Positions 1 through 54,643 of a stretch of 54,643 nucleotides of DNA are shown here, piece after piece. This stretch comes from Candidatus Moraniibacteriota bacterium (GTDB taxonomy: Bacteria; Patescibacteriota; Minisyncoccia; Moranbacterales; UBA2206), in contig JAPLXG010000004.1 in NCBI GenBank assembly GCA_026396175.1, positions 1 to 54,643 on the forward strand. Reading direction: 5' to 3'. The position numbers and the translations under genes are program-made. Every line of letters begins with the position of its first letter. Positions within the stretch are counted from its first letter, which is position 1. The notes beneath the pieces were generated by a model, which made no database searches, was not told where the DNA came from, and saw only the letters and a list, made by a program, of their open reading frames with translations.

Positions 1-2
1 TG

Positions 3-140
3 CCCTCACCTGTCACGTGCTCGTGACATCCTCTCCCGAGGGGAGAAGAGGAGTTGAAGGGACTATTCCATAGCCTCACCTGTCACGAGTACGTGACATC
101 CCTGCCTACCGGCAGGCAGGCTCTCCCTAAGGGAGAGGAG
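3..140. repeat. Family C repeat, two modules in tandem
   Basis: Two copies of a CCCTCACCTGTCACG..CGTGACATC..CTCTCCC..GGGAG module lie head to tail (about 3-51 and 73-140). Each contains two small palindromes. In the second copy a 20-bp near-palindrome (101-120, CCTGCCTACCGGCAGGCAGG) interrupts the module; the copy near 44.13 kb lacks it. The same modules recur at 34.15, 34.63, 37.95 and 44.02 kb. The array may extend beyond the left edge of the window. Confidence 0.8.
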
Positions 141-152
141 GGAATTTTTTTA

Positions 153-1529
153 TTATTTCATAAAATCTTTCCCCCTCAACTTCTTATGATATGTAATCGC
201 AAAACGATGCGCTTCGTCGCGCACGCGCTCGATAATTTCATCCGAAATTTCTGGCACACTGCCAAAGGCATAGCGGTCTAGTTTTTTGCGGGCGGGACCT
301 TTCGCCACTGCGAGGAGTGGAATTTCCAGATGAAAATTCTTGAGCACACGTCGCACCGCCGTGAGATGACCTTGTCCGCCGTCGAGTATAATCAGATCGG
401 GCTTGGGCCAACTATTGCCAAATCTGCGCCCCAACACTTCCGCCATCGACGCCGTGTCATTCGCACCTTCAATTGTTTTGATTTTAAATTTCCGATACTG
501 ACTCTTATTTTCTGTTAGCTCTCCCTGAGAATTATCAAAAACCACCATAGACCCAACACTAGAACGGCCAGAAATATTAGAAATATCATACCCTTCGACG
601 CGAAATATTTTTGAATTTGCATTTTTGTTATATGTTTCATGTTTCATGCTATATGACACGAGCGCAATATCCGCAATATGCTGCAACGCAAAAATAGCAT
701 TCCGCACTTTCCCCGCTCTTTCAAATTCCTGCTTTTCGCTATAAGCCGACATTTCTTTTTTCATTTTCGCAAGCAATGTTTTTTTCTTGCCCTCCAAAAT
801 CATCTTGATTCCCCGAATATTTTTAGCATAATCCTCTTTCGAAATCGCCCCAGCATACGGCCCCGGACAAAGCCCAATCTGAAAATCCAGGCACCCTTTT
901 TCGGTTTTTTGCGCCTTGGAATGATAGGGGGAAATCTTGCGCAAAATCTTGAGCGCTATCTCAATATTTTTCTTTGAGATATAGGGACCAAAAACCCTAT
1001 CGGGTTCAATTTTCAATTTTAAATTTTCTCCGCCAGCTGGCGGATTCAATTCGTTTGAAAATTTAGGAATTGGAAATTGGGTTTTGTTTAGAAATTGGAA
1101 ATTAGAAATTGGAACTTTGAGCAACTCTGTCTTACGTAAAATTACAATTCGCGGAAACAACTCTTTAGTAATAACAACGTAGCAGAATGACTTATCATCT
1201 TTCCCATCCACATTAAACTTCGGCTGCCACTTTTTGATCAAGTCCTGCTCCAAAATATATGCTTCCAAAACAGTTTCGGTTTTCCGAACTTCAATATCTA
1301 CAACTTGGTCTATGAACATTTCAATCGGCCGTTCCCCCATTCGCATATTCGCGTCATTCGCATCAATTCGCGTATTTGTATTAAATTGGAAATATGAAGA
1401 AACGCGATCCTTCAGAGACGTCGCTTTGCCCACATACAAAATAACCCCGGCATTATTTCGGAAAATATAGACCCCTGGAGAGGTTGGCAACTTTTTTAAT
1501 TTTTGCGCTAATTTGCTTGACATTTGCAT
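153..1529 (-). CDS. uvrC: UvrABC excinuclease subunit C, short form
   Basis: UvrC makes both incisions in nucleotide excision repair after UvrA/UvrB damage loading. Visible parts of the 458 residues: the GIY-YIG nuclease domain (about 15-100, with GVYIF, LYVGKATSLKDR), a UVR helix pair that contacts UvrB (about 245-290), and the RNase H-like endonuclease domain (about 308-450, with GYDISNISG, DLIILDGGQGH and RDEAHRFAI). The usual ~600-residue protein also has a C-terminal helix-hairpin-helix domain; here the frame ends just after the endonuclease domain, so that domain is missing. The Cys cluster near 213-225 has Tyr where the last Cys normally sits. Two stretches look like in-frame repeat insertions: residues ~50-68 and ~136-177. 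No Shine-Dalgarno is visible; residue 1 or 3 could be the start. It is transcribed away from the small gene at 1590. Confidence 0.93.
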   Translation of the reverse strand: MQMSSKLAQKLKKLPTSPGVYIFRNNAGVILYVGKATSLKDRVSSYFQFNTNTRIDANDANMRMGERPIEMFIDQVVDIEVRKTETVLEAYILEQDLIKKWQPKFNVDGKDDKSFCYVVITKELFPRIVILRKTELLKVPISNFQFLNKTQFPIPKFSNELNPPAGGENLKLKIEPDRVFGPYISKKNIEIALKILRKISPYHSKAQKTEKGCLDFQIGLCPGPYAGAISKEDYAKNIRGIKMILEGKKKTLLAKMKKEMSAYSEKQEFERAGKVRNAIFALQHIADIALVSYSMKHETYNKNANSKIFRVEGYDISNISGRSSVGSMVVFDNSQGELTENKSQYRKFKIKTIEGANDTASMAEVLGRRFGNSWPKPDLIILDGGQGHLTAVRRVLKNFHLEIPLLAVAKGPARKKLDRYAFGSVPEISDEIIERVRDEAHRFAITYHKKLRGKDFMK

Positions 1530-1545
1530 AGATATAAGCTACATT
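1517..1545 (+). promoter_or_regulatory. Predicted sigma-70-type promoter
   Basis: TTGACA (1517-1522), 17-bp spacer, TACATT (1540-1545). It would drive the small gene starting at 1590 and overlaps the first codons of the divergent uvrC. The same consensus recurs before other small genes in the window. Confidence 0.55.
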
Positions 1546-1589
1546 ACAATATCTTCTTTGACAATACAATTAACCAAATTGGAGGTTAT

Positions 1590-1772
1590 ATGGCAGAAAA
1601 AAAATTATTGCACGAATATCTTATCGTCATTAGCCGTGAAGGTGAACTAGAAGTTGTTCCCTTTGGAAATGAATACGCCATAAAAGAAATAGAGGCATAT
1701 TTTAATCGCGTTTCCGAACAATGGTCGGATGCATATTTATGTAAAGTTATCAGAGGACCGATTGAAATTTAG
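1590..1772 (+). CDS. Small hypothetical protein (60 aa)
   Basis: Not recognised. The start at 1590 was chosen because a GGAGG site (1581-1585) lies six bases upstream; an ATG further upstream has none. The product is short and mixed charged/hydrophobic (MAEKKLLHEYLIVISREG...), without a membrane segment or Cys motif, and looks like a small alpha/beta protein. A predicted promoter lies at 1517-1545. The leader TTCTTTGACAATA...AACCAAA..GGAGG is partly repeated about 230 bp downstream (1786-1814), ahead of a second possible small gene. Confidence 0.6.
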   Translation: MAEKKLLHEYLIVISREGELEVVPFGNEYAIKEIEAYFNRVSEQWSDAYLCKVIRGPIEI

Positions 1773-1870
1773 ACAGCAATTTTCTTTGACAATAACGCAC
1801 AACCAAAAAGGAGGCACAGGCGAGAGGAAGCTTTCATAGAAACGACCCGCAATGGCAAAGAGACAGGGTC

Positions 1871-1942
1871 ATGGTGCTTTATCGTATTGCACCGATTGTT
1901 TTTCTAATCATTTTCACTATCGCATTTTTCTGCGATAAATAA
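1871..1942 (+). CDS. Possible 23-residue single-pass membrane peptide
   Basis: Open frame MVLYRIAPIVFLIIF... with one hydrophobic run of about 15 residues ending in FFCDK. It sits between two small genes on the same strand. A strong AAGGAGG (about 1808-1814) lies too far upstream to set this ATG, although the frame stays open back to that site and lacks only a start codon. An overlapping frame starting at ATG 1852 would give a 28-residue Cys/His-containing peptide instead. Speculative. Confidence 0.25.
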   Translation: MVLYRIAPIVFLIIFTIAFFCDK

Positions 1943-1962
1943 CCCAGATAAGGAGGTCAGGG

Positions 1963-2256
1963 ATGATTATCAATGGTACTTTTAAAACAATACACGGAAA
2001 GAATACAACGATTGAAAGCGGAGATTGCATGAACTATGACCGTGCCGAAAAAGCGATTGGCTTTTTCCGCAAGGACAGACTCATGCAATTAAACAACTCG
2101 CGCAATGTTTCATTGCCACTCGAGCTCGAAACAGATCGCGTGGCTTTTAAGAACATGGCGCTGGTAATGGCCACACTTTCCGGCCTAAGTGTTGAGGTTG
2201 ACTGCTCAAACGAGCATGTCTTCTTGGCCAATTTTTTTAACAATCGAGGAAGTTAA
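1963..2256 (+). CDS. Hypothetical protein (97 aa)
   Basis: Not recognised. It is well supported as a gene by an AAGGAGG site (1950-1956) seven bases before the ATG and by an intrinsic terminator right after the stop. It looks soluble, with one late Cys (VEVDCSNEHVF) and no transmembrane run. It lies last in a short plus-strand set with the 60-aa gene at 1590 and possibly the 23-aa peptide at 1871, likely one transcript from the promoter at 1517. Confidence 0.65.
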   Translation: MIINGTFKTIHGKNTTIESGDCMNYDRAEKAIGFFRKDRLMQLNNSRNVSLPLELETDRVAFKNMALVMATLSGLSVEVDCSNEHVFLANFFNNRGS

Positions 2257-2269
2257 AGACTTCACATCT

Positions 2270-2312
2270 CCGACCATGCAATGTTATTTTTTCCTTGCTG
2301 GTCGGTTTTTTT
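2270..2312 (+). terminator. Intrinsic terminator
   Basis: CCGACCA..TGGTCGG stem followed by seven T, 14 bases after the stop of the 97-aa gene. Confidence 0.8.
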
Positions 2313-2336
2313 ATTTTCCCAAAAACCTCCTCCCTT

Positions 2337-2455
2337 GTCATTCCCGCGCAGGCGGGAATCTAGTCTAAAAACTAAATTAACTAGACTGACCCAATGCTTG
2401 GATTAACTATTTTAACAAAAAATTTACACTGGATCCCCGCCTCCGCGGTGATGAC
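2337..2455. repeat. Family B REP pair, copy B1 (non-coding)
   Basis: Left arm GTCATTCCCGCGCAGGCGGG..., right arm CACTGGATCCCCGCCTCCGCGGTGATGAC-type, each a hairpin, in inverted orientation 119 bp end to end. The interior is AT-rich and holds no gene, unlike copies B4-B6. Confidence 0.85.
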
Positions 2456-2510
2456 ATAAAAGGAAGGTTTTTATCTTGAAATTTGCATTTTACATTATAC
2501 ATAATACATT

Positions 2511-5500
2511 CTACTTCCTACTTAATACTTCTTTTAGGTATTTCCCCGTCCAACTCTCCTTATGCCACTTCGCAACTTCTTCCGGCGTGCCGGAAACGAT
2601 TACTTTCCCGCCCTCTTTCCCACCTTCCGGTCCCAGATCAATAATCCAATCGGCGGTTTTGATTACGTCTAGGTTATGCTCGATTACAATCACAGTATTA
2701 CCCGCATCAACTAAGCGATTGAGAATTCCCAATAATTTTTTGATATCATCAAAATGCAAGCCTGTCGTTGGTTCGTCTAAAATATATAAAGTATCCCCTG
2801 TCGCCCGGCGAGACAGTTCAGTGGAAAGCTTGATTCGTTGCGCTTCTCCGCCGGAGAGTGTCGTGGCGGATTGGCCGAGTTGAATGTAGCCCAAGCCGAC
2901 ATCTTCCAAGACTTTGAGTTTGTCGGCAATGTCGTGAAAATTGGCGAAAAATTCGCGCGCTTCGGAAATGGTCATCGCCAAGACATCGGCAATGTTTTTA
3001 TCGCGATATTTTACTTTGAGCGTTTCGCTGTTGTAGCGTTTCCCAGAGCAAACATCGCACGGCAAATAGACATCCGGCATAAATTGCATTTCAATTTTGT
3101 TGTATCCATCGCCTTCGCAATTATCGCATCTTCCCCCACGAACATTAAAGGAAAATCTTCCCGGCGAATAGCCTTTCGCTTTGGCATCGCGCGTCTCAGC
3201 AAACAGCTCGCGAATCGCCGTGAATAGTCCCGTGTAGGTCGCCGGATTAGATCTGGGTGTGCGACCAATCGGTGACTGATCAATCATAATCACTTTGTTG
3301 AGATAGTGATCACCCACAATTTCGCTGTGCTTGCCCGGCCGTTCCAGCGAACGCATAATCTTAGCTGAAAGAGCTTTATATAATATATCTTCAACCAGAG
3401 TTGATTTGCCTGAACCAGATACACCAGTCACGCAGGTCAAAACTTTGAGTGGAAACGACACAGTAATGTTTTGCAAATTATGCTCGCGCGCTCCGCGCAC
3501 CACGAGTGTTTTTTTATTTTTGAGCGATCGCCGAAAAGCCGGAATTTCAATCTGCATTTCCCCTCGCAAATATTTCGCGGTGAGGGAATTTTTGCTTTTC
3601 ATCACTTCTTCGGGCGACCCTTGCGCCACAATTTCTCCGCCGTGTTTTCCCGCACCCGGCCCAATGTCCACGAGATAATCCGCCGCACGCATTGTTTCTT
3701 CGTCGTGCTCCACAACAATTAAAGTATTGCCGACATCTCTGAGTTGCAAAAGTGTGGCAAGCAATTTTGCGTTATCGCGCGCATGAAGTCCAATTGATGG
3801 TTCGTCAAGAATATAGAGCACGCCGACCAGTTGCGAACCAATTTGGGATGCCAAGCGGATGCGTTGGGATTCACCGCCGGCTAGAGTGTTCGCGGCGCGA
3901 CCAAGCGAAAGATACCCAAGACCGACGTCTTGCAAAAAGCCCAAACGGTTTTGAATTTCTTTGAGGATCCGACTGGCAATTAATTCTTCGCGCTTACTCA
4001 AATTTATTTTTTGAAAAAAATCCAAAGTTTCTCGCACGCTAACATTGGAAACTTCCTGGATGTTTTTATTTCCCACGGTTACGAGTAGCACCTCTTTTTT
4101 ATAGCGTGAACCTAGACAAGTCGAGCAGGGATTTTGCGACATATATTTTTCAATATCTGTGCGCACGCCTTCTGAATCTGTTTTGAGATAGCGATCTTGC
4201 AAATAGCCGACCACTCCCCGCCAACGCATATTATATTTCCAACTTGATCCAGTTTTGCTCCGCAAAGTCACCGGAATTTCGTCCGCCTCTTCTTCGGCAA
4301 TCATATCCTGGGCTTCCGGTCTGCCATAAAGCAAAGTATTAAAGTCATCGTCAGATAAATCCCGCAGCCGCACATTATCGCGGATATGATAGAAATTCGT
4401 CACAGCGCGCAAAATCGTCCCCTGCCAATTATTTTTCTTGTAACTCCACGGCATAATTCCGCCTTCAGCGATAGTTTTATTCATATCCGGCACAACCAAA
4501 TCTGGATCAATCTCTTTTTTCACGCCCAAACCTTCGCAAGATGGGCAAGCACCAAAAGGACTATTGAAAGAAAACAAGCGTGGCTCCAGTTCGGGAAAAT
4601 CCACCTCATGCACCGGACAAGAAAAATTCTGATTAAAAATCATCCCGCTGTTTTCATTTTTTTCTCCATCTGTAGCACTGCTTGTTTTTTTATCCTTTTT
4701 GTCATTGGTATTTTGGGTTTTGGATTTGATTTGAAATTGGAAATTTGAAATTGGAAATTTTACCCTCACTATGCCCTTGGAAAGTTTCAGTGCTTGCTCT
4801 ACGCCTTCAAAAATCCGCGAAATATTCTCGGAATTAATTTCCACCTTGTCGACCAAAATATCAATATTATGTTTTTTGTAGCGCTCCAACTTCACCCGCG
4901 TCCCAATCTTTTCATCCAGCGTATATTTTTTTCCATTGACTACTGCGGTGGAAAAACCGCGCCGGAACATTTCCTCAAGGAGCGTCGAGTATTCACCTTT
5001 GCGCTCTCGCACAATCGGAGAAAAAATTTCAATCGCGCACCTAGACGCATTAAAATGCGTCTCTACATTATTTTTTACGTCACAAACATTCAAAATTCGA
5101 TCCACAATTTCATCTGTGGAAAGTTTCACGATTTCGTGACCGCAGATGGGACAATGCGCCACGCCGATTTTAGCATAGAGCAAACGCAAATAATCATGAA
5201 TTTCCGTCACCGTTCCCACAGTTGAACGCGGATTATGTGAAGCGGCTTTTTGATCAATCGAGATCGCCGGGCTTAGTCCTTCAATCGAATCAACTTCCGG
5301 CTTTCCCATTTGCCCCAAAAATTGCCGCGCATAGCTCGAGAGACTTTCGAGATATCTCCGTTGCCCTTCGGCAAAAATGGTATCAAAAGCCAGCGTACTC
5401 TTCCCTGAGCCGCTGATCCCGGTAAAAACAATAAATTTATTCCGCGGCAGGTCAAGGTTTACATTTTTCAAATTATGCTCTCTTGCACCGCGAATGATTA

Positions 5501-5513
5501 ATTCATCTTGCAT
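2511..5513 (-). CDS. uvrA: UvrABC excinuclease subunit A, ATPase
   Basis: UvrA is the dimeric ABC-type ATPase that finds lesions and loads UvrB. Visible: Walker A of the first ATPase (GISGSGKST, ~33-40), a zinc module starting CPICGHE (121), a second one with CPVHEV...CPSCEGLG (~299-325), the signature LAGGESQRIRLASQ with ILDEPSIGLH, the second Walker A (GVSGSGKST), the zinc finger CDNCEGDGY...CDVCSGKRY, and a second signature LSGGEAQRIKLS with ILDEPTTGLH. At 1000 residues it is about 60 longer than usual. The excess lies in two stretches with no counterpart in standard UvrA: ~144-158 (NNVETHFNASR) and ~252-293 (PISNFQF...), both read from repeat DNA kept in frame. The second zinc module has Cys-x-x-His instead of CxxC. 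There is no Shine-Dalgarno before the ATG. Confidence 0.97.
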   Translation of the reverse strand: MQDELIIRGAREHNLKNVNLDLPRNKFIVFTGISGSGKSTLAFDTIFAEGQRRYLESLSSYARQFLGQMGKPEVDSIEGLSPAISIDQKAASHNPRSTVGTVTEIHDYLRLLYAKIGVAHCPICGHEIVKLSTDEIVDRILNVCDVKNNVETHFNASRCAIEIFSPIVRERKGEYSTLLEEMFRRGFSTAVVNGKKYTLDEKIGTRVKLERYKKHNIDILVDKVEINSENISRIFEGVEQALKLSKGIVRVKFPISNFQFQIKSKTQNTNDKKDKKTSSATDGEKNENSGMIFNQNFSCPVHEVDFPELEPRLFSFNSPFGACPSCEGLGVKKEIDPDLVVPDMNKTIAEGGIMPWSYKKNNWQGTILRAVTNFYHIRDNVRLRDLSDDDFNTLLYGRPEAQDMIAEEEADEIPVTLRSKTGSSWKYNMRWRGVVGYLQDRYLKTDSEGVRTDIEKYMSQNPCSTCLGSRYKKEVLLVTVGNKNIQEVSNVSVRETLDFFQKINLSKREELIASRILKEIQNRLGFLQDVGLGYLSLGRAANTLAGGESQRIRLASQIGSQLVGVLYILDEPSIGLHARDNAKLLATLLQLRDVGNTLIVVEHDEETMRAADYLVDIGPGAGKHGGEIVAQGSPEEVMKSKNSLTAKYLRGEMQIEIPAFRRSLKNKKTLVVRGAREHNLQNITVSFPLKVLTCVTGVSGSGKSTLVEDILYKALSAKIMRSLERPGKHSEIVGDHYLNKVIMIDQSPIGRTPRSNPATYTGLFTAIRELFAETRDAKAKGYSPGRFSFNVRGGRCDNCEGDGYNKIEMQFMPDVYLPCDVCSGKRYNSETLKVKYRDKNIADVLAMTISEAREFFANFHDIADKLKVLEDVGLGYIQLGQSATTLSGGEAQRIKLSTELSRRATGDTLYILDEPTTGLHFDDIKKLLGILNRLVDAGNTVIVIEHNLDVIKTADWIIDLGPEGGKEGGKVIVSGTPEEVAKWHKESWTGKYLKEVLSRK

Positions 5514-5524
5514 AATAATACACT

Positions 5525-5712
5525 GTCATTCCCGCAAAGGCGGGAATCCAGGTTCCACTAGTTATAAACTCTCGAAAATCGAATTGAGAATTCTCTAGCT
5601 TTATGTTTCAGTTAGCTTACTGCTTAATTAATTCGTATTATTTATTATCTATAGCCCGAGGTGCCTGGATCCCCGCCGGAGTTTATACTCGTGAAACGGG
5701 TGCGGGGATGAC
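5525..5712. repeat. Family B REP pair, copy B2 (non-coding)
   Basis: GTCATTCCCGCAAAGGCGGG at the left, GGATCCCCGCC...GGTGCGGGGATGAC at the right, 188 bp end to end. A short insert (GGAGTTTATACTCGTGAAAC) widens the right hairpin. The interior is AT-rich with no open frame. Confidence 0.8.
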
Positions 5713-5773
5713 ACAAAAAATTTAGTATAGTTTAGTTTAAAACTTTTTGACTTTTCCTGCAAGCCAATGACTT

Positions 5774-5813
5774 AGATAAAATAATAGCCGGCTTCAGATC
5801 GCTGAAGTCGGCT
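5774..5813 (-). terminator. Intrinsic terminator
   Basis: Minus-strand stem AGCCGACTTCAG / CTGAAGCCGGCT with a four-base loop, followed by ATTATTTT. It closes the small-gene cluster 5840-6565. Confidence 0.75.
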
Positions 5814-5839
5814 AAAGTCCTGGTACCGCTGGGACTGGA

Positions 5840-6025
5840 TTAATAAAAAATTACAACATTCCCTGATTCGAGAGAGATGTCTTTTTTTACCCCTTTGTTA
5901 AGATCAAATGAGTTGGATCCGAGTTCAACTGTTTTCGAGCTTGCAACTGAGGCTGGATCATATCTGTATACTTTCTCGATAAACTCACCGAGAGTTTTCG
6001 AGTCTACAACTGGAAATTCCGGCAT
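5840..6025 (-). CDS. Small protein, possible MoaD/ThiS-like beta-grasp fold
   Basis: 61 residues, no family recognised with certainty. The pattern KTLGEFIEKVYRYDP (~10-24), a polar middle, and a C-terminal L-x-SGNVVIFY strand resembles the layout of ThiS/MoaD-type beta-grasp proteins (T-x-x-E-L-L, then L-x-x-G-D-x-V-x-I). The Gly-Gly tail needed for sulfur transfer is absent. AAGGAG precedes the ATG by seven bases. It is last of a three-gene minus-strand cluster, with the terminator just behind it. The protein at 8209 ends in the similar KDRVVFY. The fold call is inference from sequence pattern only. Confidence 0.6.
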   Translation of the reverse strand: MPEFPVVDSKTLGEFIEKVYRYDPASVASSKTVELGSNSFDLNKGVKKDISLESGNVVIFY

Positions 6026-6040
6026 ATCTTATCTCCTTTT

Positions 6041-6286
6041 TTAATCGAAAAAACCAATTCCCCCGATGGGTCGACAATCAAGCTTGAGTGCAACGATGGC
6101 ACCCTCTCCAACAGGAACGCTTCCGAGATCTTCCTGGCAGGGAACATATACCTCCTTGCCACCACTTCCAAAGTTGTTGATGACCTCAATAGTGGTGACT
6201 TTTTCCATCATATCAGGATCGGAAATACCTACGCCCTGGACAATTGCTCCCAATGTTGTGGGGACTTCAATCTTTTTTTTAAGCAT
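6041..6286 (-). CDS. Small protein (81 aa), possible beta-grasp fold
   Basis: Start set at 6286 because GAGGAGG lies a few bases upstream (6291-6297); a longer frame to 6328 has no such site. Residues TTLGAIVQGVGISDP, then KVTTIEVINNF, then VPVGEGAIVAL follow the same order as its neighbour at 5840 (helix after T-L-G, strand, late Gly turn plus strand). It ends in a glycine-rich tail GGIGFFD. It sits 15 bases from the next gene, so the two are almost certainly co-transcribed. Function unknown. Confidence 0.6.
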   Translation of the reverse strand: MLKKKIEVPTTLGAIVQGVGISDPDMMEKVTTIEVINNFGSGGKEVYVPCQEDLGSVPVGEGAIVALKLDCRPIGGIGFFD

Positions 6287-6320
6287 ACATCCTCCTCTTG
6301 GAAAAAGTTGAAAAACAATC

Positions 6321-6565
6321 TCACGCATCGGAAAGAATCCCCGACCAGTAAACTTTACTGTCCAGGAAAATAGTCACAGACTCTCCTGTGACCAACAAAA
6401 CATTCTTGGCAATTTCCGAATAAATATGCCGCAAATGCCTTGGTCCGACAACCACCCTCCTGATGTTATCCGGTGAAATCTTATTTTTCTCCAACAATTC
6501 GAGCAAGTTTCTCGATTTGTGGATCGCTACTGCTCTGGTAAAGCATAACTATCAAATATGCTCAT
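6321..6565 (-). pseudogene. Small beta-grasp-like gene with an apparent -1 frameshift
   Basis: The ATG with a good GAGGGGG site is at 6565, but that frame (MSIFDSYALPEQ) stops after 12 codons. One frame over, coding continues as FTRAVAIHKSRNLLELLEKN... to the stop at 6321, ending KNVLLVTGESVTIFLD..., the same layout as its two neighbours. A single missing base near 6543-6547 (in GCTTTACC) would restore an ~81-residue protein. It could be a sequence error, a real mutation or ribosomal slippage; restart at TTG 6506 is also possible. Confidence 0.45.
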
Positions 6566-6634
6566 GATACCCCCTCTTTTTCCTGAATTGACAAAAAACA
6601 AAAACTACTCCAGCCTCTATCCATATAATAAGCC

Positions 6635-6663
6635 AGTATGTCGCAAAAACCCAATTTTGTCAA
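6635..6663 (-). promoter_or_regulatory. Predicted promoter for the small-gene cluster
   Basis: Minus-strand TTGACA (6658-6663), 17-bp spacer, CATACT (6635-6640), about 70 bases upstream of the ATG at 6565. The -10 box is weak. Confidence 0.4.
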
Positions 6664-6737
6664 GCTAACTATCACGCCCTTGACACGAAGCATTAAAACT
6701 GCTATATTTAGCGTAGAATTACTACGAAAAGATCCCC

Positions 6738-7259
6738 TTAAGGTTCCGTCCTTCTGGGGCGCTTTTTATTTTTATACCCCAATTTATCTTTTAACTCATT
6801 AAGAAAAGCAAGTCTATTCCGAGCCGTTTTCTTTATGAGCGCTGAATAATTATGCATATCCGGAATTAACACTTTTTCTAATTTGTCATTTTCTAATAAA
6901 TATTTAATCAAACAATAAAAATCACCATCGCCTGTCACAATAACCGCTTTCTCATATTCCCGATAATCAATCATTGACTGTAGGACGAGTTCCGCATCGC
7001 AATTACCCTTTATTCTGCCATCCTTATTTTTTAATGTTGGCTTAAAAACTATTATGTAGCCATTTTTCTGTAAAGAATTATACAGATTTTGATTTTCCGG
7101 AACATACCCTATAAATATGTAGGCTATTTTTACTTTATACTTTTCTTTCAGATAAACTCTAAATTTGAAAAAATCCAACTTCCAGCCCAAACGTTGAATT
7201 GATAAATTCAAATTCTGGCTATCGATAAACGCATAGTTTTTTACCTCTTTATTTTGCAT
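6738..7259 (-). CDS. NYN-domain (PIN-like) predicted ribonuclease
   Basis: 173 residues matching the NYN/LabA-DUF88 fold: first acidic strand YAFIDSQNLN (D13), a middle CDAELVLQSM, and VTGDGDFYCLIKYL carrying the third acidic pair. These Asp/Glu residues form the metal site of PIN-like nucleases, so RNA cleavage is the likely activity; the substrate is unknown. A basic tail (KNKKRPRRTEP) could bind nucleic acid. The start has no Shine-Dalgarno. It follows the LexA-like gene by 13 bases on the same strand, so it may share its transcript and respond to damage. The last codons overlap a possible terminator hairpin (about 6729-6762). Confidence 0.8.
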   Translation of the reverse strand: MQNKEVKNYAFIDSQNLNLSIQRLGWKLDFFKFRVYLKEKYKVKIAYIFIGYVPENQNLYNSLQKNGYIIVFKPTLKNKDGRIKGNCDAELVLQSMIDYREYEKAVIVTGDGDFYCLIKYLLENDKLEKVLIPDMHNYSALIKKTARNRLAFLNELKDKLGYKNKKRPRRTEP

Positions 7260-7940: not shown

Positions 7941-8076
7941 TTTATCCCCCACCACTTTTCCGCTTATAAATTACCACGACTCTATTAGCTACATATTACA
8001 CGGCGCTATCAGCAGCAATTCAATAAGCTTTTTTAATTGCGCACAAAGTGCGAGCGGAAAAGTGGTGGGGGATGAA
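7941..8076. repeat. Family A inverted-repeat element, copy A1
   Basis: 136 bp bounded by TTTATCCCCCACCACTTTTC and its inverse AAAAGTGGTGGGGGAT, with a small hairpin GCGCACAAAGTGCG just inside the right end and an AT-rich unique centre. There is no open frame of note, so this is a MITE-like element. It lies between lexA and the small gene at 8209. Confidence 0.9.
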
Positions 8077-8138
8077 TTTAATTAATTACAGTGTTATTTT
8101 ACCATTGATAGCCTAACACTGTCAAGTAGCTACTCTCA

Positions 8139-9650: not shown

Positions 9651-9785
9651 ATTTATCCCCCACCACTTTTCCGCTTTTTTAAATTATTTTGCAACAGGTT
9701 ACCGCTCGGTCTTATACGCGATAACTCGCTAAATTATTTCTTGCCCGTACATAAGGTGCGAGCGAAAAAGTGGTGGGGGATGAAT
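9651..9785. repeat. Family A inverted-repeat element, copy A2
   Basis: Same TTTATCCCCCACCACTTTTC terminus and inverse as A1, with the GTGCGAGCG subterminal motif on the right. It abuts the start of the gene at 8548-9645. Confidence 0.9.
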
Positions 9786-9912
9786 TAAGTTTGTTATTTA
9801 TTAGTTTTATCGGCTCATTTCCGATACTTTTAGTATTATAAACAATCCGCAAATTTAGTGCAAGTATCCCGCAATGGCAGCTCTTGCCAAAAAATAATGC
9901 TCGTGATGCCAT

Positions 9913-17305: not shown

Positions 17306-17442
17306 TTTATCCCCCACCACTTTCTTGCTTATTATAATGCTCTATTCCATAAACTACTCCCGTGTGCTTATGAAATATGGCACCAACTCAACATTTCTAA
17401 TCACGCATAAAATGCGAGCAAAAAAGTGGTGGGGTATGAATT
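17306..17442. repeat. Family A inverted-repeat element, copy A3
   Basis: TTTATCCCCCACCACTTTCT at the left, AAAAAGTGGTGGGGTATGAA at the right, with the ATGCGAGC motif subterminal. It starts 5 bp upstream of the manC ATG. Confidence 0.9.
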
Positions 17443-17564
17443 ATCTATTTATGCTACCCTCTAATTAAACCACACCACCCAAAAAAACGAAAGGCAGTCG
17501 TTTTTATCCCGCGCTATTTTGGCTATCCCAAGCCAAAAAATGGCTAGAAATAGCCAAATTGCCC

Positions 17565-19583: not shown

Positions 19584-19717
19584 TTTATCCCCCACCACTT
19601 TTTAGCTTTTGATTTCTTATTCACTTTATTTAGAATTACGCTAATCTTGTTTATAAATAATTTAATCAACATCCCTCATTTGCGCTACGGCGCGAGCTAA
19701 AAAGTAGTGGGGAATGA
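19584..19717. repeat. Family A inverted-repeat element, copy A4
   Basis: TTTATCCCCCACCACTTTTT starts directly after the TAA of the substrate-binding-protein gene; the right end AAAAAGTAGTGGGGAATG has diverged at two positions. It ends about 12 bp before the next ATG. Confidence 0.88.
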
Positions 19718-19729
19718 AAAACAAATACT

Positions 19730-20338
19730 ATGCAAAACAACTTTGAATTTGTGCCCAAGCACTATGCGGCACGCGAACATGAAAAAATGGTCGACGTCCT
19801 GATGGATCCCAACGGCGTGGGTCCGGCCATTCACTACTATATGATCCGCGGCGGAATTGAGCAAAAAAATATTACCGTCTGGGAACCGGGCACGATTTCC
19901 GGGGAATATATCAAAACCTATGGCCACTACCACGTCGGACAATTAGACGAAACTTACAATATCCTCTTTGGCGAGGGCATCGCACTTTTGCAAAAATTAT
20001 CCGTTGACGAAAATGGTGAAATGATCGCCGATTCAGTTTCCGAGTTCAAAGCGATTGTCACAAAAATCGGAGAAGAAATTTATATGCCACCAAGCTATGG
20101 CCATCTCTTGGTCAACACCGGACACACCTATTTTGTCACTGCAGACACCAGCCCGGTTAATTTTGACGAAAAAAATCCAGTAAGCTTTCCCGGCCACGCT
20201 GATTACGAACCAGTCAAAAAAATGCGCGGCTTCGCCTACTATGTCGTCGAACACGATGGCAAACCAGCACTCAAAAAAAATCCGCTTTACAAAGAAATTT
20301 TGAATGAAGATTTGGGAGGATTGCCGATAATCAACTAA
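19730..20338 (+). CDS. pgiA: Cupin-type glucose-6-phosphate isomerase
   Basis: 202 residues of the metal-dependent cupin GPI family, known mainly from archaea and some bacteria, unrelated in fold to classical Pgi. It interconverts glucose-6-P and fructose-6-P. Visible: the cupin metal motif YIKTYGHYHVGQLDETYNIL (His, His, then Glu) and the second cupin motif YMPPSYGHLLVNTG carrying the last His ligand. The C-terminal tail after ~165 is typical. It is followed by a mannose-6-P isomerase-like cupin after 14 bases, so the pair links glucose-6-P to mannose-6-P. Confidence 0.92.
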   Translation: MQNNFEFVPKHYAAREHEKMVDVLMDPNGVGPAIHYYMIRGGIEQKNITVWEPGTISGEYIKTYGHYHVGQLDETYNILFGEGIALLQKLSVDENGEMIADSVSEFKAIVTKIGEEIYMPPSYGHLLVNTGHTYFVTADTSPVNFDEKNPVSFPGHADYEPVKKMRGFAYYVVEHDGKPALKKNPLYKEILNEDLGGLPIIN

Positions 20339-24070: not shown

Positions 24071-24114
24071 TTATACTATGACGAAAAACTTAAGTAAACG
24101 CTGGAAAAACAATT

Positions 24115-24415
24115 GTCATTCCCGCGCAGGCGGGAATCCAGTCACGCAATTAGCTTAAAATAGAGGTCGTCCCAGTTAGGATTATTTTGTTCGATAAGAT
24201 TTATTTTCCACGCTCTGTTCCATTTTTTGAGTGCTTTTTCCCTGGCAATAGCTACTAAATCCATCAGTAATCTTGGTTTTATGTTGCTGGATTCTTTTAA
24301 TTAAATCTGAGGTTACGCCGATGTATAGTGTCCCGTTTCTGTTACTAGCTAAAATATAGAGATAGTAGCTTTTCATTAAGTCTTTACACTAGATTCCCGC
24401 CTGCGCGGGAATGAC
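24115..24415 (-). mobile_element. Family B cassette B4: REP pair around a decayed GIY-YIG gene
   Basis: Left arm GTCATTCCCGCGCAGGCGGG..., right arm CACTAGATTCCCGCCTGCGC...GGGAATGAC, inverted. The interior is filled by one gene remnant on the minus strand. The cassette lies between manB and trpS. Confidence 0.85.
24142..24376 (-). pseudogene. GIY-YIG nuclease, frameshifted by internal deletion
   Basis: N-terminus MKSYYLYILASNRNGTLYIG, then VTSDLIKRIQQHKTK, matches the intact copy at 30394. After KITDGF the DNA lacks 56 bp that copy B6 retains; this shifts the frame and gives a 64-residue protein with a false tail. The original C-terminus (NRAW..., LIEQNNPNWDDLYFKLIA) is still readable in another frame down to a TGA at 24142, directly beside the REP arm. 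A single-copy T-A-C at the junction suggests slippage or microhomology deletion. Confidence 0.85.
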
Positions 24416-24433
24416 AATAATTTTTTGGATTTT

Positions 24434-30192: not shown

Positions 30193-30354
30193 CAAAAATG
30201 GGGATGCCTGCCCCGTGCAATCCGCCAGCTGGCGGAGATTTTACGGGGTGATTGAATTTAAGATTTGATAGAGTGGACCATGATTTGATTTAGCATAATC
30301 CTCGAAAACATTCACAATGACACGAGGCTACTAAAAATAAAAACCAGCAAGATT

Positions 30355-30711
30355 GTCATTCCCGCGAAGGCGGGAATCCAGTGTAAAAACTCAATGAAAA
30401 GCTACTATCTCTATATTTTAGCAAGCGAAAAAAACGGCACCCTATATATTGGAGTAACTTCAAACTTAATCAAAAGAATCCAAGAGCACAAAACCAAGAT
30501 TATAGATGGCTTTACTAAAGAATATGGCATAAGCAAGCTCGTGCACTACGAACAGACAGAAAATATTCATTCGGCTATTGCCAGAGAAAAAGCGCTGAAG
30601 AAATGGAATAGGGCGTGGAAAATAAAGCTCATCGAACAAAATAATCCTAACTGGGATGACCTCTATTTTAAGATAATTGCGTGACTAGATTCCCGCCTGC
30701 GCGGGAATGAC
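30355..30711 (+). mobile_element. Family B cassette B5: REP pair around an intact GIY-YIG gene
   Basis: GTCATTCCCGCGAAGGCGGG at the left and TAGATTCCCGCCTGCGCGGG..ATGAC at the right, inverted, 357 bp. The gene fills the space: its ATG is 13 bp inside the left arm (CCAGTG), and its TGA is 2 bp from the right arm. The 45 bp outside the left arm (ATCCTCGAAAACATTCACAA...CTACTAAAAATAAA) is also found beside copy B6, so the mobile unit may be longer than the REP pair. Confidence 0.85.
30394..30684 (+). CDS. Single-domain GIY-YIG endonuclease, intact copy
   Basis: 96 residues, COG2827-type GIY-YIG domain. The motif is present as YYLYILASEKNGTLYIGVTS (GIY-like strand YIL, YIG), then the conserved Arg in LIKRIQEHK, the Tyr/Lys in TKEYGISKLVHYEQ, and the catalytic-type Glu in AIAREKALKKW. 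Proteins of this type resemble the UvrC N-terminal nuclease. It carries no separate DNA-binding domain. It is the only intact member of three copies (24142, 38890), each enclosed by inverted REP arms, so the gene is likely part of the element. There is no Shine-Dalgarno; the ATG sits 13 bp from the REP arm. Confidence 0.85.
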   Translation: MKSYYLYILASEKNGTLYIGVTSNLIKRIQEHKTKIIDGFTKEYGISKLVHYEQTENIHSAIAREKALKKWNRAWKIKLIEQNNPNWDDLYFKIIA

Positions 30712-30779
30712 AATTATTATTTAATATTTAAACCTAAGTTTTCCGTCATAATAAAAAATAATTATATAACTATATTTCT

Positions 30780-36669: not shown

Positions 36670-37227
36670 GGGGATGCCTGGTTTCGACAGGTTGTACGTT
36701 TAAAATATGCAAGCCGAGCTCTTATGGCTGCTCGTTTATCCCCCACCACTTTTTTACTCGCACTTTGTGCGCGAGAGATAGTTTACTAATTTATCATCAG
36801 TAAGTTAATAAAAAACGACTTACATGCAAGATAATTTCAAAAAGTAGAAAAGTGGTGGGGGATGAAAAACCGCTATTAAAGTTATAAGTGCAAACTTACT
36901 AACAAAAGCAAAAACTGCGATTGCTGAGGCTTTCACAGTCAACTTTGCTACCGCTCTTGCCTAATACTAGCCTTTACTAGTTAGGGCATAAGCCATCGAA
37001 TTTATTTTCGCCCAAGGGGTAAATTTCGGTGTCATATTATTGGGCTAGCTTTTGGCACTTTTCTTGGCTGCCACTTGCGAAATCAATGCCGAGAATAGAT
37101 TGAGAAGGTTTTGTTCGCCTTTCACTTTTCGATCGACCCCGCCTCGTGTGGGAACCAAGGCGAAATAAGCTTGTAGTATATTTTAGATGAATAATTTTGG
37201 ACGCGAGTTCAACTCTCGCCATCTCCA
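36670..37227 (+). ncRNA. ssrA: tmRNA, interrupted by a family A element
   Basis: Standard ends: 5' GGGGATGCCTGGTTTCGACA and 3' GCGAGTTCAACTCTCGC with CATCTCC + A; GGGGATG pairs with CATCTCC. The CCA is not encoded. The first pseudoknot is built from GAGC/GCTC (36716-36733) and ATGGC (loop) with GCTAT (36872-36876). The ~132-bp family A repeat lies between GCTC and GCTAT. The tag frame starts GCA at 36890 and ends TAA at 36964, giving the 24-residue tag ANLLTKAKTAIAEAFTVNFA plus TALA. Without the insert the gene would be about 426 nt. Upstream gene is smpB; infC follows. Confidence 0.93.
36735..36866. repeat. Family A inverted-repeat element, copy A5, inside ssrA
   Basis: TTTATCCCCCACCACTTTTT at the left, AAAAGTGGTGGGGGATGA at the right; the GTGCGCGAGAG hairpin is on the left here, so the element is reversed relative to A1-A4. 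Its inverted ends would form a long helix in the RNA. Confidence 0.92.
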
Positions 37228-38358: not shown

Positions 38359-38454
38359 TAAGTAAATTTTTAAATTATAAATTTCGAATCAATTTGAGAT
38401 TATCAATGCATTTCATTGAAAATTGAAAATTGAAAATTGAAAATTACCCCAAAT

Positions 38455-38848: not shown

Positions 38849-38862
38849 GTATTTATTTTTTT

Positions 38863-39138
38863 GTCATTCCCGCGCAGGCGGGAATCCAGTCACGCAATTA
38901 GCTTAAAATAGAGGTCGTCCCAGTTAGGATTATTTTGTTCGATAAGATTTATTTTCCACGCTCTGTTCCATTTTTTGAGTGCTTTTTCCCTGGCAATAGC
39001 TGAATGAATATTTTCAGTTTGTTCATAATGAACTAATTTTCTAACATCATACTTTTTACTAAATCCATCAGTAATCTTGGTTTTATGTTGCTGGATTCTT
39101 TTAATTAAATCTGAGGTTACGCCGATCGCGGGAATGAC
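38863..39138 (-). mobile_element. Family B cassette B6: REP pair with truncated GIY-YIG gene
   Basis: GTCATTCCCGCGCAGGCGGG at the left. The right arm is only the outer part, CGCGGGAATGAC, joined directly to gene sequence. The 45 bp beyond it is the same flank that lies outside copy B5 (inverse orientation), so both copies share more than the REP pair. Confidence 0.85.
38890..39126 (-). pseudogene. GIY-YIG nuclease, 5' end deleted
   Basis: Reads IGVTSDLIKRIQQHKTKITD, GFSKKYDVRKLVHYEQTENI, then the same C-terminus as the intact copy (NPNWDDLYFKLIA) and ends at TGA 38890 against the REP arm. The first ~19 codons are gone: sequence jumps from the YIGVTS codons straight into the right REP arm (GCCGAT|CGCGGG). 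An open frame through the junction exists but starts in repeat and flank DNA. Confidence 0.88.
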
Positions 39139-39208
39139 AATCTTATTTATTTTATTTTTAGTAGCGCTGTGCCATTGTGAATGTTTTTGAGGATGATACA
39201 CGAAGATG

Positions 39209-39412: not shown

Positions 39413-39548
39413 TTTATCCCCTACCACTTTTTCACTCGCGTTCGCGATATGCAGGCAGAGTTTTGTTAATTAAATTATTTACAGCTTATCTAAGCAAACT
39501 CAAATGTAAATTAAGGTAAAAAAAGTGAAAAAGTGGTGGGGGATTAAT
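39413..39548. repeat. Family A inverted-repeat element, copy A6
   Basis: TTTATCCCCTACCACTTTTT at the left, AAAAAGTGGTGGGGGATTAA at the right. The CACTCGCGTTCGCGA hairpin lies on the left, so orientation equals A5. It overlaps the last codon and stop of the HAD gene at 39544. Confidence 0.9.
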
Positions 39549-40263
39549 TCTTATTATTAATTTCATAGATCACATCTTTTTTCTCTACCACAATTCTCCA
39601 CTGATTTTTCTCCGCAATTTTTCGCAAATTCAAATCTGGATTAAACGCAATCGGCCGATCAACCAACTCCAAAAATGACGCGTCGGATTGGGTATCCCCC
39701 ATCCCGAAAGAATCAACCAGCGAAATATCATTTTCAGCGACGAATTGTTTCACCACCGATCCCTTGTCATGCGTTGGTTCAAAAATCGTACGCCCGGTAT
39801 AAATTTTGTTTTTATCAATTTCATAGACACTGCCGAAATAGGCATCAAAACCAAAAATCTCCGCATATTCTTTCACAATCTCGATTGGCGAGCCGGAGAT
39901 CACAAGCATTACGTGATCGCTGCGCATTTCTTCAATCAGTTTTTTGGCAAAAATATAGGTTCGCTTGATATTGAACTCAGCCACGATTTTGGCGGCTTTC
40001 ATGATGTCTTCCTGGCTTTTGCCGGCAATGTTTTTTTCATACAGCTCCACCAGCTTTTTGCGATAGGCTTCATAGGTGCCTTCGTTGTCCAGCCAATGAC
40101 CATAGAGACCGATCAGTTCATTCCTGACAATTTTGGGAAAAATCTTCATCCAGGAGAGTTCGTTTAAAAGTTCAAAAGCTAAATTTTTGCGAAAAATTGT
40201 ACCATCAATATCAAAAACGGCTAACTTTTTTTTGTGCGTTTTCTTGCAAATTTCTTTTATCAT
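39544..40263 (-). CDS. HAD-superfamily hydrolase, SerB/PGPC-like
   Basis: 239 residues from the ATG at 40263 (MIKEICKKTHKK). HAD motif I VFDIDGTIF (nucleophile Asp near 17, acid Asp +2), motif II VISGSP, motif III Lys in THDKGSVVKQF, and motif IV GMGDTQSDASFL. Subfamily IB resembles phosphoserine phosphatase and sugar/lipid phosphatases. It hydrolyses a phosphate ester; substrate unknown. Its last codons lie inside the family A element. No Shine-Dalgarno. Confidence 0.85.
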   Translation of the reverse strand: MIKEICKKTHKKKLAVFDIDGTIFRKNLAFELLNELSWMKIFPKIVRNELIGLYGHWLDNEGTYEAYRKKLVELYEKNIAGKSQEDIMKAAKIVAEFNIKRTYIFAKKLIEEMRSDHVMLVISGSPIEIVKEYAEIFGFDAYFGSVYEIDKNKIYTGRTIFEPTHDKGSVVKQFVAENDISLVDSFGMGDTQSDASFLELVDRPIAFNPDLNLRKIAEKNQWRIVVEKKDVIYEINNKN

Positions 40264-53047: not shown

Positions 53048-54643
53048 GTGGTTCCTTGGCCGGTGATGAGGTCTCCTCTTTGCACTGTTCCTGGATTGGT
53101 GTCGGAGTGAGAAATGGACAGCAAGGGATGGGCGACAGCGGTCACAGCGGAAGCCCAAGATGGTGCGCCACTGGAAAGAACCAGAATTTGACCATCGGAG
53201 CCTTTGGCTAGTTTGGAAAGCGTGGTGCCGGAAGCATAGTAGAGAATGTCGCCGGTAGTGTAGGAGTTTAGTCCCGTGCCTCCGTTGGCCGTGGTTAGTT
53301 GATTGGTAAGCGTGAGGCTACTAAAGGTTGGGCTATCGGTGGTGCGGACATTTTGATCCATGGCATACAGTTCATATTGACCTTGGCCGGTGCTGATGGA
53401 AGCGAAAGTGGGAGTGCTCGTTACCGCGATGGATTGAGGTAAACTTAAAGTAATAATTCCTGTAGCGGCCGTGGCGTTGATTTGATTGGTAGTACCGGAA
53501 AGATTAGTTACGCCGGCATTGGTGATCGTCACTACTCCCGCGCCATTGCTCACCGTGATGCCGGTGCCTTGGGTGAGGGTGGAGAGCGTTAAGTTATTGA
53601 AAGTTGGGCCATCGGTTGTTCTCACATTTTGATCCATGGCATACAGTTCATATTGTCCTTGACCGGTGCTGATTGTCGCAAAGGTGGGTGTGCTGGTTAC
53701 CGCAATGGATTGAGGCAGACTAAGTGTGATACTGCCGGTGGCGGCAGTGGCATTAATTTGGTCAGTCGTGCCAGTGAGATTAGTCACGCCGGCATTAGCA
53801 ATGGTGATTGTTCCCGCGCCATTACTGACTGTGATGCCAGTGCCTTGAGTAAGTGTGGAGAGAGCATATCCAGTGCCATTGCCAATGAGGAGTTGTCCAA
53901 TACTGGGAGTGGTAGTGAGACCGGTGCCACCGTTTCCAATCGCCACGGTAGTACCATTCCAAATTCCCGTCGTAATCGTACCGAGGGTAGTGATGTTGGT
54001 TGTGCCTGCCCAAGTGGAAAGGGCAGTATTTTCCACACTGCCAAGATTGATGTCGGTTTTAGTTAAAGTATACCAAGCGCTGTCTGTGCCGTCCGAGCGC
54101 AAAAATTGTCCACTGGTTCCAAGTGCCAAGCGACTCCAGGTAGTTGTTGCTCCTTGTCCAGTGATCAAATCCCCTCTTTGCACTGTGGCCGGAGTGGTGT
54201 CAGGATGCTGCCCCGATAAGAGGCTATGCGAAGTCGCCGGAGCAGTGCCACTCCAAGCCGGCACACCGTCTTTGACGATGAGCATATAGCCTTCTGTGCC
54301 GATGGGCAAATTAGTCATCGCACTGCCGGAATCGTAGTAAAGCATATCCCCGGCGGTATAGCTGGTTAGTCCTAGGCCGCCATAAGTCGTTGCCAGTGTA
54401 CCCTGAATGTCACTGGCTAGATTAATTTTTTTGATACTCAGGCTTTGGCCGGAAATGGAAATGAAACTGGCACCGCTGACAGTTAGTGTTTTCAGGCGTT
54501 TATCATTGCCCAGCACTAATTGATTAGTGCCGGTGCCGGTGGGGAGACTACTGATGTCAATTTGACCGCTGGCGTCAAGGGCGACGATGTCACCGGTATT
54601 TGTGCCCACCTTTTTGCCATTAAGGAGCAGTGCATTAGCGGAA
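53041..54643 (-). CDS. Giant tail-fibre-like surface protein, N-terminal part, partial
   Basis: The frame is open across the right edge of the window, so the true start lies outside. It contains repeats of the type FLRSDGTDSAWYTLTKTDIN, LPQSIAVTSTPTFATISTGQ and GTGITVSNGAGTITIANAGV. Two tandem units of 276 bp (92 codons) lie at 53324-53599 and 53600-53875. The frame reads GDLITGQGTTLL and then runs into an unlike tail; one base over, SAYWGAVSGETG continues the pattern. The same LITGQG motif upstream continues normally, so a base is probably missing near 53045, either a real mutation or a sequence error in the repeats. Confidence 0.7.
53324..53875. repeat. 276-bp tandem repeat in the fibre gene
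   Basis: Two units of 276 bp (53324-53599, 53600-53875), coding for 92 residues each, about 80 percent alike by eye. A third, partial match (STGQGQYELYAM segment) is at 52555-52635. Confidence 0.8.

Follow-up and report, generated by a model that had tools for sequence, protein, structure and literature searches.

Rickettsia palindromic elements (RPEs) are palindromes of 100–150 bp that occur both between genes and, in frame, within conserved protein genes (Ogata et al. 2000, as reviewed in PMC2229807). They also lie within structured RNA genes, namely those for tmRNA and RNase P RNA (PMC2229807), and in-frame selfish inserts have been listed for Rickettsia, Wolbachia and Methanocaldococcus (PMC2996958). 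Here, we describe a heptamer-based palindromic element in a 54,643-nucleotide stretch of DNA (hereafter the window; contig JAPLXG010000004.1, positions 1–54,643) from a Candidatus Moraniibacteriota bacterium, in which uvrC and uvrA each carry an insert encoding the heptapeptide PISNFQF. The genome measures 0.98 Mb in 16 contigs and is 95% complete; the records of its closest relatives are named Candidatus Moranbacteria or Moraniibacteriota, that is, Patescibacteria. We consider it probable, at roughly three chances in four, that both inserts are copies of one short dispersed palindromic repeat family that is widespread across Patescibacteria and filtered by selection against stop codons. Literature searches found no description of this heptamer repeat in Patescibacteria.

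Both genes are intact by Pfam. Their features in the window, including period assignments by Tandem Repeats Finder (TRF), are:

153..1529, minus strand: uvrC coding sequence, 458 aa, with Pfam domains GIY-YIG, UVR and UvrC_RNaseH; insert at about residues 140–173
1004..1118, plus strand: complete palindromic heptamer element in uvrC, an imperfect palindrome of ~115 bp whose arms repeat a 7-nt unit (GAAATTx / AATTTTC) around the GC core CCGCCAGCTGGCGG
1005..1028, plus strand: left arm TTCAATTTTCAATTTTAAATTTTC of the uvrC element, a period-7 array (TRF) with which the right arm pairs in the DNA fold
1029..1044, no strand assigned: GC-rich palindrome TCCGCCAGCTGGCGGA in uvrC, read as PPAGG; 21 exact copies in the genome
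1056..1118, plus strand: right arm of the uvrC element with the GTTTAGAAATTGGAAATTAGAAATTGGAA array, periods 7 and 14 (TRF), aligning with the intergenic consensus
2511..5513, minus strand: uvrA coding sequence, 1000 aa; insert at about residues 252–275, directly behind the UvrA interaction domain (Pfam UvrA_inter, up to residue 252)
4705..4760, plus strand: half element in uvrA, a single arm made up of leader TTGGGTTTTGGATTTGATTTG and four units (TRF period 7/14)

The original prediction held that a repeat coding for PISNFQF had entered both proteins where standard proteins have no residues, and this was borne out for each gene. In UvrC, PISNFQF occupies residues 140–146. The stretch between the conserved residues R132 and G181 is 50 aa long here, versus 20–22 aa in five congeners (Moranbacteria-like Patescibacteria), and has a median of 22 aa and a minimum of 12 across 51 UvrC homologues. 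An AlphaFold2 model based on the 51-sequence alignment gave block-mean predicted local distance difference test (pLDDT) values of 42–48 for residues 141–170, placing the low-pLDDT insert as a linker between a structured segment (127–137) and a strand (176–183). The same UvrC loop carries heptamer arrays in other genera, both in sense (loci L226 and L270) and antisense (L245) orientation, while in other relatives it is filled by unrelated repeats such as VIASEAKQS, VIPSLSRDL, PTGQAG and SPFRKRG. The insertion site appears to be set by the tolerance of the loop rather than by a special property of the heptamer repeat.

In UvrA, PISNFQF forms residues 254–260, in a region of 38 residues versus 6 in the best-scoring solved UvrA, a homologue from the Protein Data Bank. 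The insert, recognisable by NFQF, is common to congeners G003, G004 and G005, but is absent from G006, which is short there, and different in G002. Because three congeners share it, we consider the UvrA insert older than that of UvrC. The repeat accounts for no more than the first ~10–20 residues of the UvrA stretch; the remainder, NDKKDKKTSSATDGEKNENS, is an ordinary low-complexity linker. In relatives, the UvrA loop holds KPHPSPLLIKERE, LTPALSQRARG or NPPAGG. A conserved extra domain in UvrA and UvrC was considered and rejected, as the loops of relatives are short or filled with unrelated sequence. Empty versions of the sites were thus found in the five congeners for UvrC and in G006 for UvrA, and among the congeners we saw no conservation of the two stretches in genomes without the repeat.

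Between genes, the element has the consensus (AATTTTC)n AAACAATTTTCAATGATTCAATTT ... AAATTTAGTCATTnAGAAATTAGAAATTGTTT(AGAAATT)n, an imperfect palindrome with heptamer arms facing outward. These arms at both ends constitute terminal inverted repeats, a trait of miniature inverted-repeat transposable elements. A model built from 11 intergenic copies, from which the uvrC copy was left out (R1), matched the uvrC insert at 1004–1114 over model positions 1–122 with 57 bits and a genome-wide E-value of 6 × 10−5; all R1 E-values are rough owing to a short calibration and AT-rich sequence. The rsmH insert was also matched (E-value of 1 × 10−4), and the uvrA insert matched as one arm only (E-value of 2.7). 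Hairpin z-scores were −2.9 for the 115-nt uvrC copy and −4.9 for an intergenic copy, and positions 1–7000 of the window had no match to a known RNA family. The proposed resemblance to RPEs holds in form for uvrC, which has both arms, a whole-length match to the intergenic element and empty congener sites; the uvrA insert, with a single arm, is not equivalent. A probable intergenic copy in the window is:

38362..38449, minus strand: match to R1 with 41 bits and an E-value of 0.006 over the 327 kb searched, containing (AAAATTG)4 at 38415–38445 (TRF score 62)

GC-rich palindromes are nested in several copies, including CCGCCAGCTGGCGG in uvrC and an CCTGCCTGCCGGTAGGCA-type palindrome in uvrD. The uvrC palindrome, whose reading as PPAGG had been predicted, lies at 1030–1043 and is one of the 21 exact genomic copies. 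Arrays are also present in tsaD, leuS, ligA, rsmH and uvrD of this genome, and all five inserts in the encoded TsaD, LeuRS, LigA, RsmH and UvrD are either longer than the corresponding stretch of the congeners or absent from the congeners' proteins. In one congener (G001), the tsaD site is occupied by a similar insert and the ligA site by a different repeat. Congeners have empty sites for six of the seven genic copies, and their orthologous intergenic gaps are empty or occupied by other repeat families. Genome-wide, GAAATTGGAAATT occurs 91 times with at most one mismatch, versus two occurrences for the reversed pattern, our control for array counts. Three further copies of the palindromic element lie in the 23S rRNA gene: two occupy loops, one of a hairpin at model position 1218 and the other close to position 1577, and the third falls within a 485-nt insertion. 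This gene (G000 contig C5, L034:214-5664) reaches ~5.45 kb through its insertions, which besides the three copies include an open reading frame (ORF) of 203 aa for a LAGLIDADG homing endonuclease.

Beyond this genome, four-unit arrays were found in 55 of 380 Patescibacteria genomes and the reversed control in 0 of 380, so that about a seventh of the sampled species of the phylum carry the heptamer repeat. Heptamer tracts might instead be plain microsatellites, born where they stand when replication slipped on GAAATT seeds that had occurred by chance among AT-rich codons, without any mobile element. The arrays are indeed short, those of the phylum sample have almost no flanking sequence in common, and in LeuRS, two arrays stand in place of a native hairpin similar in sequence (KFKIENSEYEFEI / KFEIRNSKFEI), at constant length. 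However, slippage predicts a decay with length, whereas arm length peaks sharply at four units: arrays of three, four and five units number 36, 53 and 6 in the sample of at least three units, and those of four and five units number 78 and 3 in the sample of at least four. Moreover, uvrC has both arms together with an unrelated GC palindrome, and the same six bases recur phylum-wide with none for the reversed control. We therefore regard a purely local origin as unlikely. The unit of six fixed bases and one free base would be explained by the hairpins between rpsL, rpsG and fusA of one relative, which consist of 6-bp blocks with one mismatch every 7 nt.

A tandem of a stop-free 7-nt unit encodes the identical heptapeptide in all three frames; GGAAATT is read as GNWKLEI and, antisense, as PISNFQF. 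Within an array, the phase of entry is irrelevant, for the simple reason that the 7-nt period is not a multiple of 3. The PISNFQF common to uvrC and uvrA is thus guaranteed by the array, and the shared frame, put forward in the original prediction as evidence, carries no weight for the heptamer; array phases were 22/30/31 (p = 0.41), showing no frame bias. The argument does stand for the GC palindrome. Although open in all frames, it is read as PPAGG in each of the 11 interior insertions confirmed by protein family (three in UvrC, two in UvrA, two in CCA-adding-type enzymes and one each in LigA, MetRS, an rRNA adenine dimethylase and MsrA). The chance of this is 6 × 10−6, a somewhat optimistic figure, as a single event may underlie both CCA enzymes. 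Wherever another frame of the palindrome occurred, the ORF was short or belonged to no family, or the palindrome lay in an N-terminal stretch not covered by a recognised domain. The whole uvrC element is open in only one of the three antisense frames.

We named array types after the variable base of the unit (A, AGAAATT; G, GGAAATT; T, TGAAATT; C, CGAAATT). Homogeneous A-type arrays have a stop in every frame of both strands, T-type arrays have stops in sense only and G- and C-type arrays have none. This stop content therefore predicts where each type can reside. Two samples were examined. The order-level sample comprised arrays of at least three units; some of its loci were fetched with a GG pattern, which enriches the G-type and leaves the ratio in and out of genes within each type unaffected. 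The phylum-level sample comprised arrays of at least four units from separate genomes, fetched after the stop rule had been formed, with 84% ORF coverage of its loci. In the order-level sample, counts in genes and outside were 28 and 4 for the G-type, 0 and 22 for the A-type, 10 (all antisense) and 13 for the T-type, and 7 and 5 for the C-type. The phylum-level sample gave 29 and 1, 0 and 6, 16 (all antisense) and 3, and 11 and 0, respectively. Pooled, 0 of 28 A-type and 57 of 62 G-type arrays were genic, and 26 of 26 genic T-type arrays were antisense. Because genes were called as long ORFs, an A-type array within a gene would show as a break. A direct check for A-type arrays concealing broken genes yielded one doubtful pure A-type locus (L244), and the other loci flagged were mixed arrays inside open frames.

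These results fit a family whose intact copy would be a hairpin of ~115–130 bp, with each arm made of about four 7-nt units of six pairing bases and one variable base, and often with another short GC palindrome nested in it. Copies would land in, or be copied to, many places, probably irrespective of function, and selection would filter them. Arrays bearing stops in all frames (AGAAATT type) would be retained in intergenic DNA and rRNA insertions only. Copies free of stops (GGAAATT, CGAAATT and antisense TGAAATT) would be retained in genes where they add a net length divisible by three and lie in a flexible surface loop. This reading is supported by intergenic sites that occur in full and empty form, the gap at times holding another repeat family. 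The copies, their empty sites, the filtering by stops and, for UvrC, the location in a loop are directly shown by the data. Copies presumably move between sites, and the element is probably neutral or selfish.

The placement of intergenic arrays might also suggest translation or mRNA-processing signals selected upstream of genes, with the genic copies an accidental spill-over. In the wider sample, A-type arrays mostly end 2–17 nt upstream of a co-directional start, and start-facing arrays outnumber stop-facing ones by 22 to 5 (~17 to 5 without orthologues, p = 0.017). They often precede translation genes (rpsL, rpsG, fusA, rpsC, rpsK and rplP). In the str operon region of one genome (L232, G087 contig C79), the gaps before rpsL, rpsG and fusA each hold a four-unit AGAAATT array ending 8–15 nt before the start codon, and the RNA hairpins between rpsL, rpsG and fusA in one genome reach −27 and −41 kcal/mol. 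Against such a role, the orthologous gaps of congeners are empty or hold unrelated repeats, several relatives are without any array, and the R1 copies of the present genome face stops as often as starts. As an account of the whole family, we judge a leader or spacer function quite improbable.

Several observations nonetheless weigh against a dispersed repeat filtered by stops alone. Given their bias towards start codons, the intergenic A-type copies may be functional. Genic G-type arrays favour the antisense orientation by 44 to 13 (p = 5 × 10−5) though both strands are open, and peptide-level or element-level constraints beyond stops must therefore act. No target-site duplication was recognised by eye in the full and empty pairs, the flanks of which are just 70–87% identical, and no dedicated transposase or mobility gene was identified, though none was searched for. 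Finally, the two LeuRS arrays, which lie in the editing-domain hairpin in other genomes (L475 and L494), leave loop length unchanged and look overwritten into the native hairpin rather than inserted. A bolder and doubtful possibility is that a phylum-wide element, its arm fixed at four heptamers, continues to enter the genomes of Patescibacteria through a copying process able to both overwrite and insert. Its A-type hairpins, located a short way upstream of starts, would then serve as spacers within operons or as 5′ leaders, and its G-, C- and T-type arms would be frame-indifferent coding inserts in essential proteins.

DNA-uptake sequences combine intergenic inverted pairs with in-frame copies at tolerant protein positions. 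The layout seen here may be likened to theirs, and spread of a recognition sequence through transformation bias could be imagined. However, the heptamer repeat has tens of copies per genome, not about a thousand, and is patchy between congeners, making this explanation highly improbable.

The window contains other repeats. A second palindromic intergenic family, TTTATCCCCCACCACTTTT...AGC with its complement ~110 nt away, has six copies (7941–8091, 9652–9799, 17306–17455, 19584–19733, 36735–36881 and 39413–39562). A dispersed element of ~300 bp edged by GTCATTCCCGC / GCGGGAATGAC is present in three copies (24105–24426, 30344–30722 and 38852–39149), one of them inverted and two identical in parts. 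At 53304–53862, a long ORF contains a 276-bp tandem repeat.

The family spans Patescibacteria, has dozens of its copies inside housekeeping genes and shows clean empty sites between congeners, which makes the conversion of repeats into protein sequence a directly testable question. Loops of UvrC, UvrA, LeuRS, TsaD, LigA and other proteins have in effect undergone an insertion scan in nature. When these proteins are annotated, peptides such as PISNFQF, GNWKLEI and PPAGG are best treated as probable products of the repeat rather than as functional domains.

Compared with described systems, the heptamer element recalls the Correia elements (Neisseria miniature insertion sequences, NEMIS) of Neisseria in that a version with open frames occurs within genes and one with stops is almost confined to intergenic DNA (PMC2229807). 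Correia elements, however, have defined terminal repeats, 5′TA3′ ends and target duplications, whereas in the heptamer element one base in each 7-nt unit distinguishes the versions. The TAACTGA heptanucleotide repeats of Beggiatoaceae and cyanobacteria are likewise tandem heptamers just upstream of starts, few of them with a Shine-Dalgarno sequence (PMC4679880). Forward TAACTGA is always stop-bearing, while the unit here is GAAATTN, the arms are palindromic and essential genes contain many copies in frame. Palindromic amphipathic repeat coding elements (PARCELs) also combine palindromic DNA with coding capacity and spread between genes, but are long amphipathic protein repeats of surface proteins (PMC2996958). 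Short uncharacterised insertions or intervening sequences are known from 23S rRNA genes of the candidate phyla radiation (PMC11270868), and one copy here occupies a 23S hairpin loop, apparently of the type used by classical intervening sequences; the main text of that survey makes no mention of repeats or palindromes. There is also a likeness to RPEs: the heptamer element, too, is a palindrome of 100–150 bp with a predicted long stem-loop, occurs between genes and in frame in conserved genes where loops tolerate it, and has its insertion evidenced by empty orthologous sites, while its copies in the 23S rRNA gene recall RPEs in tmRNA and RNase P RNA (PMC2229807). It differs in occurring in another phylum, in having arms that are heptamer arrays with one variable base and in the commonness of single-arm copies. 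By analogy of form and layout, the heptamer element works like RPEs and would be at most a candidate member of their family.
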